A model generated the notes under the pieces. It saw nothing but the letters and a program-made list of their open reading frames with translations. It did not search any database and was not told the DNA's origin. This document shows positions 18,111-26,073 of a stretch of 64,000 nucleotides of DNA, piece by piece. This DNA is from an uncultured Eubacteriales bacterium (GTDB taxonomy: Bacteria > Bacillota > Clostridia > Lachnospirales > Bianqueaceae): positions 1 through 64,000 of the forward strand of contig OMYN01000004.1 in assembly GCA_900315265.1 (NCBI GenBank). Reading direction: 5' to 3'. Numbering within the stretch: the stretch's first letter is position 1; the number at the start of each line of letters is the position of its first letter. A program made the translations under genes and the position numbers.

Positions 18111-20219
18111 ATGGCGAAATATCTGGTGATCGTAGAGTCACCTGCGAAAGCGAAAACGATCAAGAAGTTTTTAGGAAGCAATTATATGGTTACGGCTTCC
18201 AACGGTCATGTAAGAGACCTTCCCAAAAGCCGCTTAGGTGTTGATGTTGACAACGATTTTGAACCTCACTATATAACCATCCGCGGGAAAGGAGAACTGC
18301 TGGCGCAGCTCAAATCGGAAGCTAAAAAAGCAGACAAAGTCTATCTGGCGACCGACCCTGACCGCGAGGGAGAAGCGATCTCCTGGCATCTGGCTTATGC
18401 GCTGGGCCTGCCCGAGAGCCAGATCCATCGGGTCACTTTTAATGAAATCACAAAAACGACTGTAAAAGCGGCAATCAAAAAACCGCGAAAGATCGACCGG
18501 GATCTGGTCGATGCCCAGCAGGCAAGACGGGTCCTTGACCGTCTGGTAGGTTATGAGATCAGCCCTATCCTATGGAAAAAAGTAAAGAGAGGTCTGTCGG
18601 CGGGCCGCGTACAGGCGGCAGCGCTGGAGCTTTTGTGCAACCGTGAAGACGAGATCAATGATTTTGTTCCTAAAGAATTCTGGACGATCGAAGGCGCCTT
18701 CACAGATGGAAAAGGCATGGCGCTGGAAGCCAAACTGACTCGTTTCCAGGGGCAGAAAGTGGAAATCGAAAATCAGGAGCAGGCATCGGAGCATCTGGAC
18801 CGGATCAAAGGGATAGCCTCTTTTGCCGTTGAAAGTGTCAAAAACGGCCAGAGGGTGCGCAAAGCGCCGGATCCCTTTACGACCAGCACCCTGCAGCAGG
18901 ATGCCAGCCGCCGCCTGAATTTTTCACCGGCCAAAACGATGCGCCTTGCTCAGCAGCTGTATGAAGGGATCGAAGTCAAGGGCCGGGGACTTACCGGCCT
19001 GATCTCTTATCTGCGAACGGATTCGACCCGTATTGCGGAAGAAATGCAGCAGGCTGCCAAAGAATATATCAGCAGTCAGTACGGAGATCCTTATACCAGG
19101 ACCGGAAGCGTTAAAACGAAAAAACAGACGGTCCGTATCCAGGACGCTCATGAGGCCATCCGTCCTACGGATGTGACACTGGATCCTAAAATGCTGGAAG
19201 AGTCTTTGAGCCGCGATCAGTACCGCCTGTATAAGCTGATCTACGAGCGTTTTCTGGCCAGTCAGATGGCAGACGCGGTCTACGAAACTCAGCATGTTAC
19301 TATTGGGGCGGGAGATTATACTTTTGATGCTTCCGGATCGCGCCTTGGTTTTGCCGGCTTTATGAAGGTCTACAAGGAAGAGGACGAACAGGAAACCGAC
19401 GAAGAAAAAATCAGTCCGGCCAAAGTAGGACAGACCCTTTCCCTCGACCGGATACAAAAGCTGCAGCACTTTACGCAGCCTCCGGCCCGCTTTACTGAAG
19501 GACTTCTGGTCAAGGCTCTGGAAGAAAACGGAGTCGGGAGGCCTTCGACCTATGCGCCTACCATCCAGACCCTGGCTGCCCGCAACTACGTGACCAAAGA
19601 GAAAAAGGTCCTGTATGTAACAGAGCTGGGGAACATCGTCCACGGGATCATCCGGCAGTACTTTGCTTCCATCAATGACCTTCATTTTACGGCTCAGATG
19701 GAATCCGAGCTGGATGACGTAGAGAACGGAAAAGAAAACTGGAAGGAAGTCATCCGCCAGTTCTATGACAGTTTCGAGCCCCAGGTAGAAAAGGCGATGG
19801 AAGAACTGGAAAAGGTCAAGATCGAGGATGAGTCTACCGATGTGATCTGTGATAAATGCGGACGTCATATGGTGCTAAAGATCGGTAAATACGGCAAGTT
19901 TTATGCCTGCCCCGGATTTCCGGAATGCCGCAACACCAAGCCGTATTTTGAAAAGATCGGTGTCACCTGCCCTAAGTGCGGCGGTCAGATCCTGATCAAG
20001 AAGACGAAAAAAGGACGAATCTATTACGGATGTGAGAATTATCCCGACTGTGATTTCATGTCCTGGGATCGACCTTCTCAAAGGGAATGTCCCAAGTGCG
20101 GGCAGAGATTGTACGAAAAACGCGGGAAACAGCGTAAGCTGGTCTGCCTGAATCCGGGCTGCGGCTATGTTCTTCCGATCGAAGACGAAAAGCAGCCGGA
20201 GGCCGATGCGCTCCAGTAA
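18111..20219 (+). CDS. topA: DNA topoisomerase I
   Basis: TopA relaxes negative supercoils. The 702-residue protein has the TOPRIM start LVIVESPAKAKTIKKFLG, the acidic DPDREGEAISWHL motif (about 82-94), the catalytic tyrosine in SYLRTDSTR near residue 300, and three C-terminal zinc ribbons (CxxC pairs in CDKCGRHM, CPKCGGQIL and CPKCGQRLY, about 585-690). The last ribbon ends in LNPGCGYV. A GGGAGGAAG site precedes the ATG. In related genomes hslVU/codY or flagellar genes often follow; here the next gene is a sigma factor. Confidence 0.98.
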   Translation: MAKYLVIVESPAKAKTIKKFLGSNYMVTASNGHVRDLPKSRLGVDVDNDFEPHYITIRGKGELLAQLKSEAKKADKVYLATDPDREGEAISWHLAYALGLPESQIHRVTFNEITKTTVKAAIKKPRKIDRDLVDAQQARRVLDRLVGYEISPILWKKVKRGLSAGRVQAAALELLCNREDEINDFVPKEFWTIEGAFTDGKGMALEAKLTRFQGQKVEIENQEQASEHLDRIKGIASFAVESVKNGQRVRKAPDPFTTSTLQQDASRRLNFSPAKTMRLAQQLYEGIEVKGRGLTGLISYLRTDSTRIAEEMQQAAKEYISSQYGDPYTRTGSVKTKKQTVRIQDAHEAIRPTDVTLDPKMLEESLSRDQYRLYKLIYERFLASQMADAVYETQHVTIGAGDYTFDASGSRLGFAGFMKVYKEEDEQETDEEKISPAKVGQTLSLDRIQKLQHFTQPPARFTEGLLVKALEENGVGRPSTYAPTIQTLAARNYVTKEKKVLYVTELGNIVHGIIRQYFASINDLHFTAQMESELDDVENGKENWKEVIRQFYDSFEPQVEKAMEELEKVKIEDESTDVICDKCGRHMVLKIGKYGKFYACPGFPECRNTKPYFEKIGVTCPKCGGQILIKKTKKGRIYYGCENYPDCDFMSWDRPSQRECPKCGQRLYEKRGKQRKLVCLNPGCGYVLPIEDEKQPEADALQ

Positions 20220-20259: not shown

Positions 20260-20880
20260 ATGGCATACAAATATTCCGATCAGACAAAGACAGACCCGGA
20301 GAGTCATGTCCGGAAACTGACTCTTCCGGAAAAACAGATGGTAGAAGAAAATCTTGCCCTGGTACCTTATACGGTGGCAAGGATATACCGTGTCCTGCCC
20401 CAGGCAGCGGATTTTGAAGATCTGATGCAGTACGGTTTTCTGGGCCTTGTCGAAGCTGCCGACAGTTTCGACGGCTGCCGAAAGGTGCAGTTCAGTACGT
20501 ATGCCTGTATCAGGATCAGGGGAGCGGTACTGGACGGGTTCAACCGGAATGAACGCCCTTTGAATGAGTATTTTTACCGTCCGGAGGACTGTGAGTCGGG
20601 GCAGCTGCTCCTGAAAGAGGACACCTGTCTGCAAACTTTCATGCAGGATGAAAAGAGTCTTGAGGAAGAAGCTTTTCCTCAGGAGGAGGAAGAAAAGAAG
20701 GTACTGGCCGCGGCTTTTCAGACCCTGGACCGGGAAGAAAAGGAAGTCGTGTGCGCTGTTTATTATGAAGGCTATTCCTTAAGGGCTCTGGCAAGGCTGT
20801 GCTGCCTGCCCAGATCTTATCTTGCCAGGATCCATAAAAGCGCTTTGGAAAAGCTGAAGAAACAGCTGATGAAACCGTAA
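20260..20880 (+). CDS. FliA/WhiG/SigD-like sigma-70 family factor
   Basis: A 206-residue alternative sigma factor. Region 2 (about 25-95) has EENLALVPYTVARI, DFEDLMQYGFLGLVEAADSF and VQFSTYACIRIRGAVLD, which is the pattern of SigD/FliA/WhiG; SRIRGAMLD-like wording is diagnostic of that group. Region 4 (about 145-200) is shorter than usual: LDREEKEVVCAVYYEGYSLRALARL, with a helix-turn-helix ending SYLARIHKSALEKLKKQL. Region 3 is poorly conserved and acidic (EEEAFPQEEEEKK). It sits in the same place as sigD in B. subtilis, just before rpsB, but no motility gene is present. The upstream site is weak (GGGAA), and it probably shares the topA transcript. Confidence 0.85.
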   Translation: MAYKYSDQTKTDPESHVRKLTLPEKQMVEENLALVPYTVARIYRVLPQAADFEDLMQYGFLGLVEAADSFDGCRKVQFSTYACIRIRGAVLDGFNRNERPLNEYFYRPEDCESGQLLLKEDTCLQTFMQDEKSLEEEAFPQEEEEKKVLAAAFQTLDREEKEVVCAVYYEGYSLRALARLCCLPRSYLARIHKSALEKLKKQLMKP

Positions 20881-20896
20881 GAAATATAATTTGTTC

Positions 20897-20925
20897 TTTA
20901 CAAACGCCTGACGAAATGGTAAAAT
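20897..20925 (+). promoter_or_regulatory. rpsB-tsf promoter
   Basis: TTTACA (20897-20902), a 17-base spacer and TAAAAT (20920-20925). A transcript would start near 20930, giving an untranslated leader of about 128 bases. Confidence 0.75.
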
Positions 20926-20929
20926 ACAG

Positions 20930-21057
20930 TTTCGTGAGGCGTTTTGTGCACTCACGAAAATACCACACTTTCCGCCGTGCCCGTCCATGGTGCCGCTTTT
21001 TAGCGGTTAAGCGGGGCAGCAACGGAAAGGCGGATAAAAACCTTTGGAGGTACTCTT
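20930..21057 (+). promoter_or_regulatory. Structured 5' leader of rpsB
   Basis: Two structured parts are visible. The first is a perfect 9-bp hairpin TTTCGTGAG / CTCACGAAA (20930-20959) at the very 5' end. The second is a nested fold with helices TCCGCC/GGCGGA (20971-20976 with 21029-21034), TGCCC/GGGCA (20978-20982 with 21014-21018) and CCGCT/AGCGG (20993-20997 with 21002-21006), ending 10 bases before the GGAGG site. Ribosomal protein operons are often autoregulated through such leaders; binding by S2 is inference. Confidence 0.55.
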
Positions 21058-21801
21058 ATGAGCGTCATTTCTATGAAACAGCTTCTGGAAGCCGGTGTAC
21101 ATTTCGGACATCAGACCAGAAGATGGAACCCCAAAATGGCTCCTTACATCTTTACGGAGCGCAACGGGATCTATATTATCGATCTGCAGAAGACCAGCAA
21201 AAAGATCGATGAAGCTTACGAGGAGATCAAAAAGATCGTAGCTGACGGCGGCACGGTCCTGTTCGCCGGCACCAAGAAGCAGGCTCAGGAAACCATGAAG
21301 ACCGAAGCAGAACGCTGCGGCATGTTCTATGTGAACAATCGCTGGCTGGGCGGTATGCTGACCAACTTCAAGACCATCCGCAGCCGTGTTGCCCGTATGG
21401 AAGAGCTGGAAAAGATGGAAGAGGACGGCACATTTGATGTCCTGCCCAAGAAGGAAGTTATGAACCTTCGCAAAGAGCTGGACAAACTGCAGAAAAACCT
21501 GAACGGTATCCGCAAGATGGAAAAACTGCCGGATCTTATCTTCATCGTTGATCCTCACAAAGAAAGAATCGCTGTACAGGAAGCTCATAAACTGGGTATC
21601 AAGACCTGCGCGATCGTTGATACCAACTGCGATCCTGAGGAAATCGGTCTGGTCATCCCGGGCAATGATGACGCGATCCGCGCCGTTAAGCTGATCGCCG
21701 GCATGGTTGCCGATGCAGTCATCGAAGCTAAGCAGGGTGAAGTCCTGACCGATACCGAGGAAACCGAAGATACCGAAGATAATCAGGAGGAAAATGAATA
21801 A
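21058..21801 (+). CDS. rpsB: Small ribosomal subunit protein uS2
   Basis: uS2 binds late to the 30S head-body junction and helps recruit S1. The 247-residue protein starts [20 protein letters not shown], contains [14 protein letters not shown] and ends in an acidic tail rich in Thr and Glu ([12 protein letters not shown]). The tail is encoded partly by a 9-bp tandem repeat. A strong TTGGAGG site lies before the ATG. Its stop overlaps the tsf start by one base (TAATG), so the pair is translationally coupled. Confidence 0.99.
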
Positions 21802-22947: not shown

Positions 22948-25900
22948 ATGGGAATCATGCATTCCGAAATGACCGGCAGGCTTGATCATTGGATGCGCAC
23001 GCTGAAAAATGATTTTTACAAGCCGCTCGGCCGCATCGACTGGACCTCGTTTACTACCATGGACGAGCTGTCTTTTGAAGATGCTGTGAAAGGTCCCTTT
23101 CAGCCGGTAGAAACCGGTTATACCTGGGGACATTTACATGAATACGGATGGTTTAAAGGATCGCTGACTCTTCCTAAAGAAGCGGAAGGAAAACGAATCG
23201 TTCTGAACTTAGCCCCCGGCGGCGAATCGACCTTGTTTGTTAACGGAAAGGCGTTCGGTACCTACCGTGCCGACTGGGTCATCGAACCGCATCATTTTTA
23301 TGAAGATAACTGGATCACGGCCAACGGTCATGAGGGTAATACTTATGAAATCCTGATGGAAACCTATGCCGGTCAGTATTACGCCACCGGCCCCGGGTGT
23401 GCGACCGGTCCTGTTCTTCCCGGTTATTACAAGGATCCCAAGACCGACGGACAGAGGGTCACTCTGGGCGAGTGCACCTATGGCATCTTCAACGAGGATG
23501 CTTACCAGCTGTGGCTGGATGTCGATACCCTGAACAATCTGCTCCAGACGCTGGATCCGGACTCTCTGAGAGCTTCCAAGATTGCGGATGCTTTGGAACA
23601 ATTCACCCTGACGGTCGATTTTGAGCAGGATCAGGAAGCCCGCAATGCCGATTACCGTAAGGCCCGCCAGGCTCTTCGGCCTGTCATGGAGGCTCACAAC
23701 GGTTCAACCGCTCCTACCTTCTACTGCATCGGCAACTCTCATCTGGATCTTGCCTGGCTGTGGCCTATGCACGAGACCTACCGCAAGACGGCCCGTACCT
23801 TTGCGGCCCAGCTGCGCAACATCGAAATGTATCCGGATTATAAATATATCCAGTCTCAGCCCGCTTCCTATGAGATGTGCCGCAAGTACTATCCCGAGCT
23901 GTTTGAGCGCATTAAGAAAGCCATCAAAGGCGGGCAGTGGATCGCTGACGGCGCTATGTGGGTAGAACCGGATACCAATATGTCATCCGGCGAGGCTCTG
24001 ATCCGTCAGCTGGTTCACGGCAAACGCTATTATAAAGAAGTGCTGGGTGTGGATTCCCATACCTTGTGGCTGCCGGATACCTTCGGTTATACCGGAGCGC
24101 TGCCTCAGATCTTAAAGAGCGCCGGCGTTGATTACCTGGTTACCCAGAAAATCTACTGGTCCTACAATGAAGGGGAGAAATTCCCCTATCATTACTTCAC
24201 CTGGGAAGGCATCGACGGCACCAAGATCACGGCTTTCTTACCCACCAGCTACACCTATTACACCAATCCGGTCACGGCTAATAAGGTTTGGAAAGAGCGC
24301 ACTCAGAAGAGAGATCTGGATGCCTTCCTGCTGCCTTACGGCTACGGCGACGGAGGCGGCGGACCGACCCGTGATTATATCGAGTACGTAGAGCGCCAGA
24401 AGGATCTGGAAGGCGGCGTGAAGATGAAACACGCATCCCCTCAGGAATTCTTCGAGGAACTGGACGAAAAGGGCGGCCCTGTCAACACCTACCGCGGCGA
24501 GCTGTACTTTACGGCTCATCGCGGCACCTATACCGGTCAGGCCCTGATCAAACGCAATAACCGTAAGGCAGAGCTGGGCCTGCGCGAGATGGAAATGTGG
24601 GGTTCTCTGGCTCAGACCGAAGGAAGTGCTGTATATCCGCTGTCGGATGCGGATCGTCTGTGGAAGGAGACCCTTCTTCATCAGTTCCATGACATCCTGC
24701 CCGGTTCCGGTATCGCAGAGATCTACCGCGAAGCAGAAAAAAGGGTCGGCGCTGTCATCGAAGAAGCAGCCGAGAAGACCGAAAAACTGGCTTCGTCTCT
24801 GGTTTCCGGGACGAGCGGCCTGACAGCCTTCAACTCTCTGAGTTTTGACCGCACGGCCCTGGTCGAGATGCCGGAAGGCACCAAAGCCGCTAAGACGGCT
24901 GAGGGCGAGGTTGTTCCGGTCTTTGCTGATCCGGACGGTGTCAAAGCACTGGTGACGGTTCCCGCTGACGGCGCTGTCAGCATCCTTCCCTGCGATGATG
25001 AAAACGTCGAAGCAGAAGGTGCCTCGGTCAAAGTCCTTGCGGACGGCTTCCAGCTGTCCAATGGCAGCGTTACTGCTTTTGTCGACAGGAATGGTGAGGT
25101 TACTTCCTTCAAGCTGGCCGGCAGTGATCGCGAATTTGCCGCAGGACCCATGAACCATTTCCAGTTCTACAAAGATGTTCCCAGACTGTTCGATGCATGG
25201 GATATCGACTCCAACTATATCAAGCAGGAGCTGGACGGAGCCTATGACGTTACGGTTTCGGTCGCAAAAGAAGGCGGAGCCGAAGCAGTCCTTGAAGTCG
25301 AGGGCAAGATCGGAAATTCTACGTTCAGTCAGAAGATCGTTCTGGAAGCTGCTTCCAAGCGGCTCGAGTTCCGGACCACAGTCGACTGGAAAGAGCTGCA
25401 CCGTCTGTTAAAGGTCGGTTTCCCGGTCTCTGTTTATTCCGATAATGTGATCAACGAAATGCAGTTCGGCTATGTTGAACGTCCTGTTCACCGCAGCAGA
25501 CTGTATGATAAAGATCGTTTCGAAGTCTGCAACCATCGCTACAGCGCTCTGTCTGACGGAAGCCACGGCGCCGCTGTTCTGAATGACTGCAAATACGGTA
25601 TGAGCGCTAACGAAAACCGCCTTGAACTGACCCTGCTGACCGCTTCCGCCTGCCCTGAAATGCGGGCCGATAATCATGTTCATCACTTCACTTACGCCTT
25701 TTGCGCCTTTGAGGGTCCCTTCTCCCAGTCGGACGTCGTACGTCAGGGTCTGGATCTGAACGTGCCGGTACTGGTCGAAAAAGGAAGCCGCAAAGCCTTC
25801 TCCGCTTTCAGCGTATCCGGAGACAGTGTCCTGATCGATACCGTAAAGCCGGCTGAAGACGGATCCAAGGATCTGGTGCTTCGCCTGTATGATTCCAAGA

Positions 25901-26073
25901 AATGCGCGGGACGCTATGACGTTCGGATCGATCTTCCGGTCAAGACCGCAAAACTGGTCAATGTTTTGGAAGAAACGCTGGAGGACCTTCCTCTGGAAAA
26001 GACCGAAACAGGATATAAACTGTCTCTTGATTTCCATGATTTCGAGATCAAGTCGGTACGCCTGTCCTTCTAA
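22948..26073 (+). CDS. GH38 alpha-mannosidase
   Basis: A 1041-residue cytoplasmic glycoside hydrolase of family 38, with no signal peptide. An N-terminal beta-sandwich (about 80-190) precedes the catalytic domain, with the zinc-binding GNSHLDLAWLWPMHET near residue 262 and the nucleophile aspartate in LWLPDTFGYTGALPQI near 377. A mid helical bundle (HQFHDILPGSGI, about 575) and C-terminal beta domains follow. The enzyme removes alpha-mannose from oligosaccharides such as imported N-glycan fragments. It is a single gene with its own promoter and terminator between tsf and pyrH; no transporter adjoins it. An AGAGGAGG site precedes the ATG. Confidence 0.95.
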   Translation: MGIMHSEMTGRLDHWMRTLKNDFYKPLGRIDWTSFTTMDELSFEDAVKGPFQPVETGYTWGHLHEYGWFKGSLTLPKEAEGKRIVLNLAPGGESTLFVNGKAFGTYRADWVIEPHHFYEDNWITANGHEGNTYEILMETYAGQYYATGPGCATGPVLPGYYKDPKTDGQRVTLGECTYGIFNEDAYQLWLDVDTLNNLLQTLDPDSLRASKIADALEQFTLTVDFEQDQEARNADYRKARQALRPVMEAHNGSTAPTFYCIGNSHLDLAWLWPMHETYRKTARTFAAQLRNIEMYPDYKYIQSQPASYEMCRKYYPELFERIKKAIKGGQWIADGAMWVEPDTNMSSGEALIRQLVHGKRYYKEVLGVDSHTLWLPDTFGYTGALPQILKSAGVDYLVTQKIYWSYNEGEKFPYHYFTWEGIDGTKITAFLPTSYTYYTNPVTANKVWKERTQKRDLDAFLLPYGYGDGGGGPTRDYIEYVERQKDLEGGVKMKHASPQEFFEELDEKGGPVNTYRGELYFTAHRGTYTGQALIKRNNRKAELGLREMEMWGSLAQTEGSAVYPLSDADRLWKETLLHQFHDILPGSGIAEIYREAEKRVGAVIEEAAEKTEKLASSLVSGTSGLTAFNSLSFDRTALVEMPEGTKAAKTAEGEVVPVFADPDGVKALVTVPADGAVSILPCDDENVEAEGASVKVLADGFQLSNGSVTAFVDRNGEVTSFKLAGSDREFAAGPMNHFQFYKDVPRLFDAWDIDSNYIKQELDGAYDVTVSVAKEGGAEAVLEVEGKIGNSTFSQKIVLEAASKRLEFRTTVDWKELHRLLKVGFPVSVYSDNVINEMQFGYVERPVHRSRLYDKDRFEVCNHRYSALSDGSHGAAVLNDCKYGMSANENRLELTLLTASACPEMRADNHVHHFTYAFCAFEGPFSQSDVVRQGLDLNVPVLVEKGSRKAFSAFSVSGDSVLIDTVKPAEDGSKDLVLRLYDSKKCAGRYDVRIDLPVKTAKLVNVLEETLEDLPLEKTETGYKLSLDFHDFEIKSVRLSF

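Follow-up and report, generated by a model that had tools for sequence, protein, structure and literature searches.

A gene between topA and rpsB encodes an orphan sigma factor of 206 aa in the window, by which we mean the whole 64,000-nucleotide stretch of DNA analysed here. Our results suggest that this protein is probably a descendant of FliA/SigD that has been re-tasked to a few non-flagellar promoters and is still a working sigma factor. Its gut-type bacterial family lacks FlgM and detectable flagella, has kept the gene in one place under protein-level selection, and has lost sigma region 3 in ten of its species.

The sigma gene occupies the sigD position in a family without flagella

The sigma gene (20260-20880, forward strand) starts with an ATG codon 40 bp behind topA (DNA topoisomerase I; 18111-20219, forward strand) and is followed after 177 bp by rpsB (ribosomal protein S2; 21058-21801, forward strand). 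No flagellar genes are present between topA and rpsB in the window. Both neighbours were identified as ORFs, with family orthologs that are 57-71% identical and in the same place for topA and 78-89% identical for rpsB. The source genome is 2.16 Mb and 97% complete, and 19 genomes from five genera of its family, f1, were examined. The earlier note had placed a SigD-like factor directly between topA and rpsB, and the ORF positions, the Pfam matches and the top ranking of the FliA_WhiG model bear this out.

Further loci were sought by a scan with TopA. In 18 of the 19 family genomes, topA or topA-codY is directly followed by an ortholog of the sigma gene, so the placement of this gene is not due to chance. 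In the nineteenth genome (G017, 66% complete) the topA-rpsB stretch is missing, and rpsB was not found there either. The gene immediately downstream is rpsB for 16 of the 18 orthologs; in G009 and G013 genes other than rpsB come after the sigma gene. In G007, G010, G011, G013 and G014, a codY gene still separates topA from the sigma gene (L036 9984-10835, L062 2264-3031), whereas the window's genus has none at that place; the identity of CodY was confirmed with Pfam in two loci.

In motile genomes of the order, sigD encodes a full-length FliA of 246-269 aa and stands at the end of the che operon, at most loci after cheC-cheD or a cheD-type gene and before FapA- or DUF6115-type genes. This arrangement agrees with the flgB-fliA locus described for Roseburia and Eubacterium, which ends with fliA and has codY just upstream of it (PMC3720852).

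FlhA was detected in none of the 19 family genomes, compared to 35 of 39 genomes from other families of the order. FlgM was likewise absent from all 19, and none of them has a flagellin above the cut-off; a Flagellin_N match in G002 was sub-threshold (20 bits against a cut-off of 26.6). On the strength of these negative searches for FlhA, FlgM and flagellin, we rejected the possibility that flagella are encoded elsewhere in the genome. A complete flagellar gene set elsewhere, which the earlier note had named as evidence that would speak against its interpretation, was not found, and this check did not refute that interpretation.

Retention of the sigma gene is not automatic once motility is lost, as rpsB is not preceded by a sigma gene in three FlhA-negative genomes from other families of the same order (G028, G047 and G032). 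The Lachnospiraceae loci L108-L111, L113 and L135 also have no sigma gene between topA and rpsB; at the level of the locus, their layout is topA-(codY)-rpsB, or topA and two other genes followed by rpsB. Two uncharacterised and apparently membrane-anchored genes were seen between codY/topA and rpsB in L109 (8958-10970) and also in L108, L110, L111 and L135, and the second gene of this pair has a weak YceG-like match. Taken together, the synteny in the family, the absence of FlhA and the dN/dS values reported below support the collapse of the fla/che locus proposed earlier and the maintenance of the sigma gene by selection since motility disappeared.

Region 3 is replaced by an acidic linker and the promoter-reading residues are altered

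Pfam identified two sigma domains in the window protein. Sigma region 2 (residues 29-99; 20344-20556, forward strand) matched PF04542 (Sigma70_r2, 51.4 bits), has mostly high pLDDT and aligns with WhiG without gaps. Sigma region 4 (residues 152-201; 20713-20862, forward strand) matched PF04545 (Sigma70_r4, 32.5 bits) over positions 1-50 of the 50 in the model, and its -35 helix is altered. The segment between these two regions, 46 residues long, gave no match to Sigma70_r3 (PF04539) and contains 14 D/E against 4 K/R. Most of it is an acidic disordered linker (residues 101-138; 20560-20673, forward strand; pLDDT below 50) in the place of region 3. AlphaFold, run with the family alignment, produced confident helical domains at residues ~20-100 and 139-205 and disorder at residues 101-138. 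The acidic replacement of region 3 was correctly described in the earlier note; its description of region 4 as short was wrong, given the end-to-end Pfam match and the full set of helices predicted at pLDDT above 90. The top Foldseek matches were B. subtilis sigma-D, WhiG and sigma-28/FlgM in a search driven by the individual domains, the global rmsd being nearly meaningless because of the flexible linker.

Motile relatives have 85-91 residues between regions 2 and 4. Of the family members, eight have 66-85 residues there and ten, the window protein (46) among them, have 34-48. Among 13 family members searched with Pfam, Sigma70_r3 was detected in only two, whereas regions 2 and 4 were both detected in all 13. 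On a tree of TopA and RpsB, the ten shortened copies require three changes, at least two of which are forced by the starred branches. Repeated erosion of region 3, on at least two occasions, is therefore probable.

Region 2 of sigma factors binds core RNA polymerase, melts DNA and recognises the -10 element. To locate the residues that changed, we set the 18 family copies against 18 FliA sequences from the order. Of the family copies, 94-100% keep the region 2 scaffold residues D52, G60, A64, F76 and A80. The residues at or after region 2.4 that are invariant in FliA (R93, D96, W97, P99 and R103) are mostly replaced, and with them the motif D96-W97-xP-R that invariably follows region 2.4 in FliA is mostly gone. 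The -35 recognition helix reads LPRSYLARIH in the window protein compared to VSESRVSQLH in motile relatives. Nearly all motile relatives carry VSESR[VI]SQ, and this sequence is altered in 18 of 18 family copies, differently in each genus, with E222 retained in none of them, Q227 in one and R224 in four.

Searches for SigD-type promoters

We searched the genomes for SigD sites with the pattern TAAA-N14-16-GCCGATA and with another derived from the flagellin promoters of motile relatives. In the family, such sites occurred at about the frequency of the reversed control, and the 19 motile control genomes were also unenriched, so the count has no power. For the promoters that the FliA group recognises, TAAA-N15-17-CCGATAWAW, these counts gave no enrichment in the family or in the motile controls. 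The sites that were inspected lay mostly inside ORFs, and these genome-wide counts, powerless as the unenriched motile controls make them, identified no target promoter of the sigma factor. Two individual candidates were rejected. The recurring sequence TAAAGxTxTTTCxGTTCAGGCCGATA in G004, G005 and G006 looks, by eye, like conserved coding sequence of the opposite strand (L086 ORF), and an intergenic site 18 bp ahead of a lipoprotein gene in G005 and G006 did not recur in other species.

The sigma gene is under purifying selection but diverges rapidly

None of the 18 orthologs contains a stop codon or frameshift. The dN/dS of the sigma gene was 0.25 for G005-G006 (95% bootstrap interval 0.14-0.49), 0.155 for G015-G018 (0.09-0.23), 0.15 for G008-G015 (0.10-0.23) and 0.21 for G009-G016 (0.13-0.33). 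The corresponding values for G005-G006 and G015-G018 were 0.06 and 0.04 for TopA and 0 and 0.03 for RpsB. Purifying selection on the sigma protein is thus about four times weaker than on TopA. Between the window species and its congeners, the sigma protein is 27-32% identical, compared to 62-67% for TopA and 84-89% for RpsB. The intact frames in 18 of 18 orthologs together with dN/dS values of 0.15-0.25 suggest a selected protein and not debris, although a dN/dS about four times that of TopA could also mean that constraint is weakening.

The main rival to a re-tasked sigma factor is that the gene is a relic which accidentally outlived the flagellar operon and is decaying, with the missing region 3 and the altered helices as marks of relaxed selection. 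The very fast divergence among congeners, the loss of residues invariant in FliA and the failure of the SigD-site searches to yield a regulon fit such decay. Against it stand the intact gene in all 18 species, the dN/dS values well below 1, and the Pfam matches for regions 2 and 4 in all 13 members searched. In addition, the gene was kept through a radiation of five genera, while no sigma gene occupies that place at loci outside the family that lack flagellar genes. We therefore consider decay unlikely.

A model for a re-tasked sigma factor

In the reading that we favour, re-tasking of a working sigma factor, the gene would descend vertically from the sigD/fliA of an ancestor that had flagella. 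The other genes of the fla/che operon would have been deleted from topA-codY-[fla/che]-sigD-rpsB before the family radiated, and FlgM would have been lost too. The protein would still act as an alternative sigma factor, with region 2 melting DNA and, judging by the sequence conservation of its scaffold, probably binding core RNA polymerase, and with region 4 reading the -35 element. The loss of region 3 and the replacement of residues that read the -10 and -35 elements would have given it an ECF-like two-domain layout and a lineage-specific promoter preference. Since it lies 40 bp behind topA, the gene is probably expressed from the topA or topA-codY transcript. Its supply would then be set by co-transcription with topA, and with codY where present, instead of by the flagellar secretion checkpoint, which cannot operate as FlgM is absent. 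The best inference is that it has a regulon outside motility. This regulon would be small, comprising one or a few non-flagellar promoters.

Many promoters depend on a given sigma factor, and for this reason its specificity is as a rule strongly conserved. A more far-reaching possibility, which we put forward tentatively, is that here a flagellar sigma factor repeatedly shed its middle domain and became ECF-like without an anti-sigma factor, its promoter-reading surface drifting from species to species together with one or a few dedicated target promoters. If true, the family would represent a natural experiment in sigma-promoter co-evolution.

It is also conceivable, though we give it little credence, that the protein is no longer a sigma factor and instead binds RNA polymerase or DNA as a regulator, for instance by acting locally on the topA/rpsB-tsf region. 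The better preservation of the region 2 scaffold than of the promoter-reading residues, and a gene that adjoins rpsB in 16 of 18 cases, would suit such a role. Region 4, however, is still a complete helix-turn-helix domain, descent alone accounts for the position of the gene, and the copies in G009 and G013 are not next to rpsB.

Assignment to the FliA/SigD group

FliA_WhiG was the best group-level NCBIfam model for the window protein, scoring 92.8 bits compared to 57 for SigB/F/G and 56 for SigK; this score and that of the closest ortholog, G007 (115.6 bits), are below the curated cut-off of 189.6 for this model (TIGR02479). For the window protein and for five diverse orthologs, FliA/WhiG-type models topped the group-specific ranking. 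The alignment of the G007 copy spans the entire FliA_WhiG model including region 3, and this form joins the short copies to FliA. Region 2 of the window protein aligns with that of WhiG without gaps, while its alignment with SigA covers three residues fewer in SigA. In an unrooted sigma tree, the family copies formed one group (90/89) beside FliA on very long branches, owing to which the tree alone cannot place them inside FliA. The SigD ancestry claimed in the earlier note is supported by the HMM ranking and by the position between topA-codY and rpsB; together with the intermediate form in G007, these features point to descent from FliA/SigD.

That the gene originated in another sigma group (SigB/F/G or ECF type) and entered the locus from there is very improbable: members without region 3 score about equally with the sigma70-ECF superfamily model and with FliA, and the family copies form their own group in the unrooted tree, but FliA/WhiG models beat SigB/F/G in all members tested, G007 covers the full FliA model, region 2 sides with WhiG and not SigA in its spacing, and the position is exactly that of sigD.

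Viewed by its features, the window protein has the position expected of the FliA/SigD/WhiG group (topA-codY-[fla/che]-sigD-rpsB) and lacks region 3, the VSESRxSQ helix, a FlgM partner and a flagellar regulon. It resembles ECF sigma factors in having regions 2 and 4 only, joined by a flexible linker. ECF descent is contradicted by a region 2 that is nearest to FliA/WhiG and by relatives within the same family that bear region 3, and no anti-sigma gene adjoins it, the neighbours being topA/codY and rpsB.

Relation to known sigma factors

Sigma-28 has outlasted the flagellar regulon in other bacteria. The non-flagellated Legionella species L. oakridgensis and L. longbeachae kept FliA and in some cases FlgM, and for L. 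oakridgensis both proteins are described as functional, with expression of FliA-dependent genes (PMC5655016). In contrast to L. oakridgensis, which keeps FlgM, family f1 has no FlgM, has lost region 3 in ten species and has replaced DNA-reading residues. Chlamydia trachomatis also has sigma-28 without flagella and provides a precedent for a tiny retained regulon, as knockdown significantly lowered the transcripts of hctB and tsp only (PMC10597470); there, however, the role is developmental, in an intracellular parasite, and the locus is different. A survey found FliA matches in 41% of non-motile genomes, a figure that may include other sigma factors (PMC12199754). The earlier suggestion that a FliA-type factor kept without motility would be new is thus too strong, orphan FliA/sigma-28 in general being already known from the non-flagellated Legionella and Chlamydia. 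Within the open-access literature searched, three features appear to be new: a whole family has kept the sigma factor in the absence of FlgM, region 3 has been lost repeatedly so that the layout approaches that of ECF factors, and the recognition helix has been rewritten in one lineage after another.

B. subtilis SigD and Lachnospiraceae FliA share with the window protein the region 2 scaffold and the ancestral position downstream of topA-codY (PMC3720852), and differ from it in their length of ~255 aa, region 3, the VSESRVSQ helix, FlgM and the flagellated cells in which they act. WhiG of Streptomyces (PDB 6pfj, 7lq4), the top PDB sequence match and among the top structural matches, is likewise a FliA-group sigma factor with a non-flagellar job; unlike the window protein, it has all three domains, an anti-sigma factor, RsiG, and a different locus. 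The order of region 2, flexible linker and region 4 recalls ECF (group 4) sigma factors, and the structures of M. tuberculosis SigK and SigL align with it, yet here a group 3 ancestor reached this layout by losing region 3, and there is no adjacent anti-sigma gene. The family therefore offers a comparative series for the re-tasking of alternative sigma factors and for the approach of group 3 to the ECF layout. It also carries a warning for annotation, in that a 'FliA/WhiG' label or match does not imply motility.

Other features of the locus and genomes

A strong hairpin lies between the sigma gene and rpsB (20899-20948, forward strand; RNA fold of -25.7 kcal/mol for 20885-20960, z -4.6), and may be either the terminator of the topA-sigma transcript or a leader element of rpsB. 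A sigma-70-like promoter match overlaps this hairpin. An Rfam search of the locus returned no family, a group II intron match being below the gathering score. Genus g1 appears to be without the sporulation-type sigma factors found in the other genera of the family, and in G001 only SigA and the orphan sigma factor were detected at the search threshold. The orphan gene is thus retained even where searches detect no sporulation sigma factors. Further downstream in the window, tsf and pyrH are separated by a gene for an alpha-mannosidase-like protein of 1041 aa (22948-26073). The relatives G001, G003 and G007 have homologs near tsf too, so this insertion is old.
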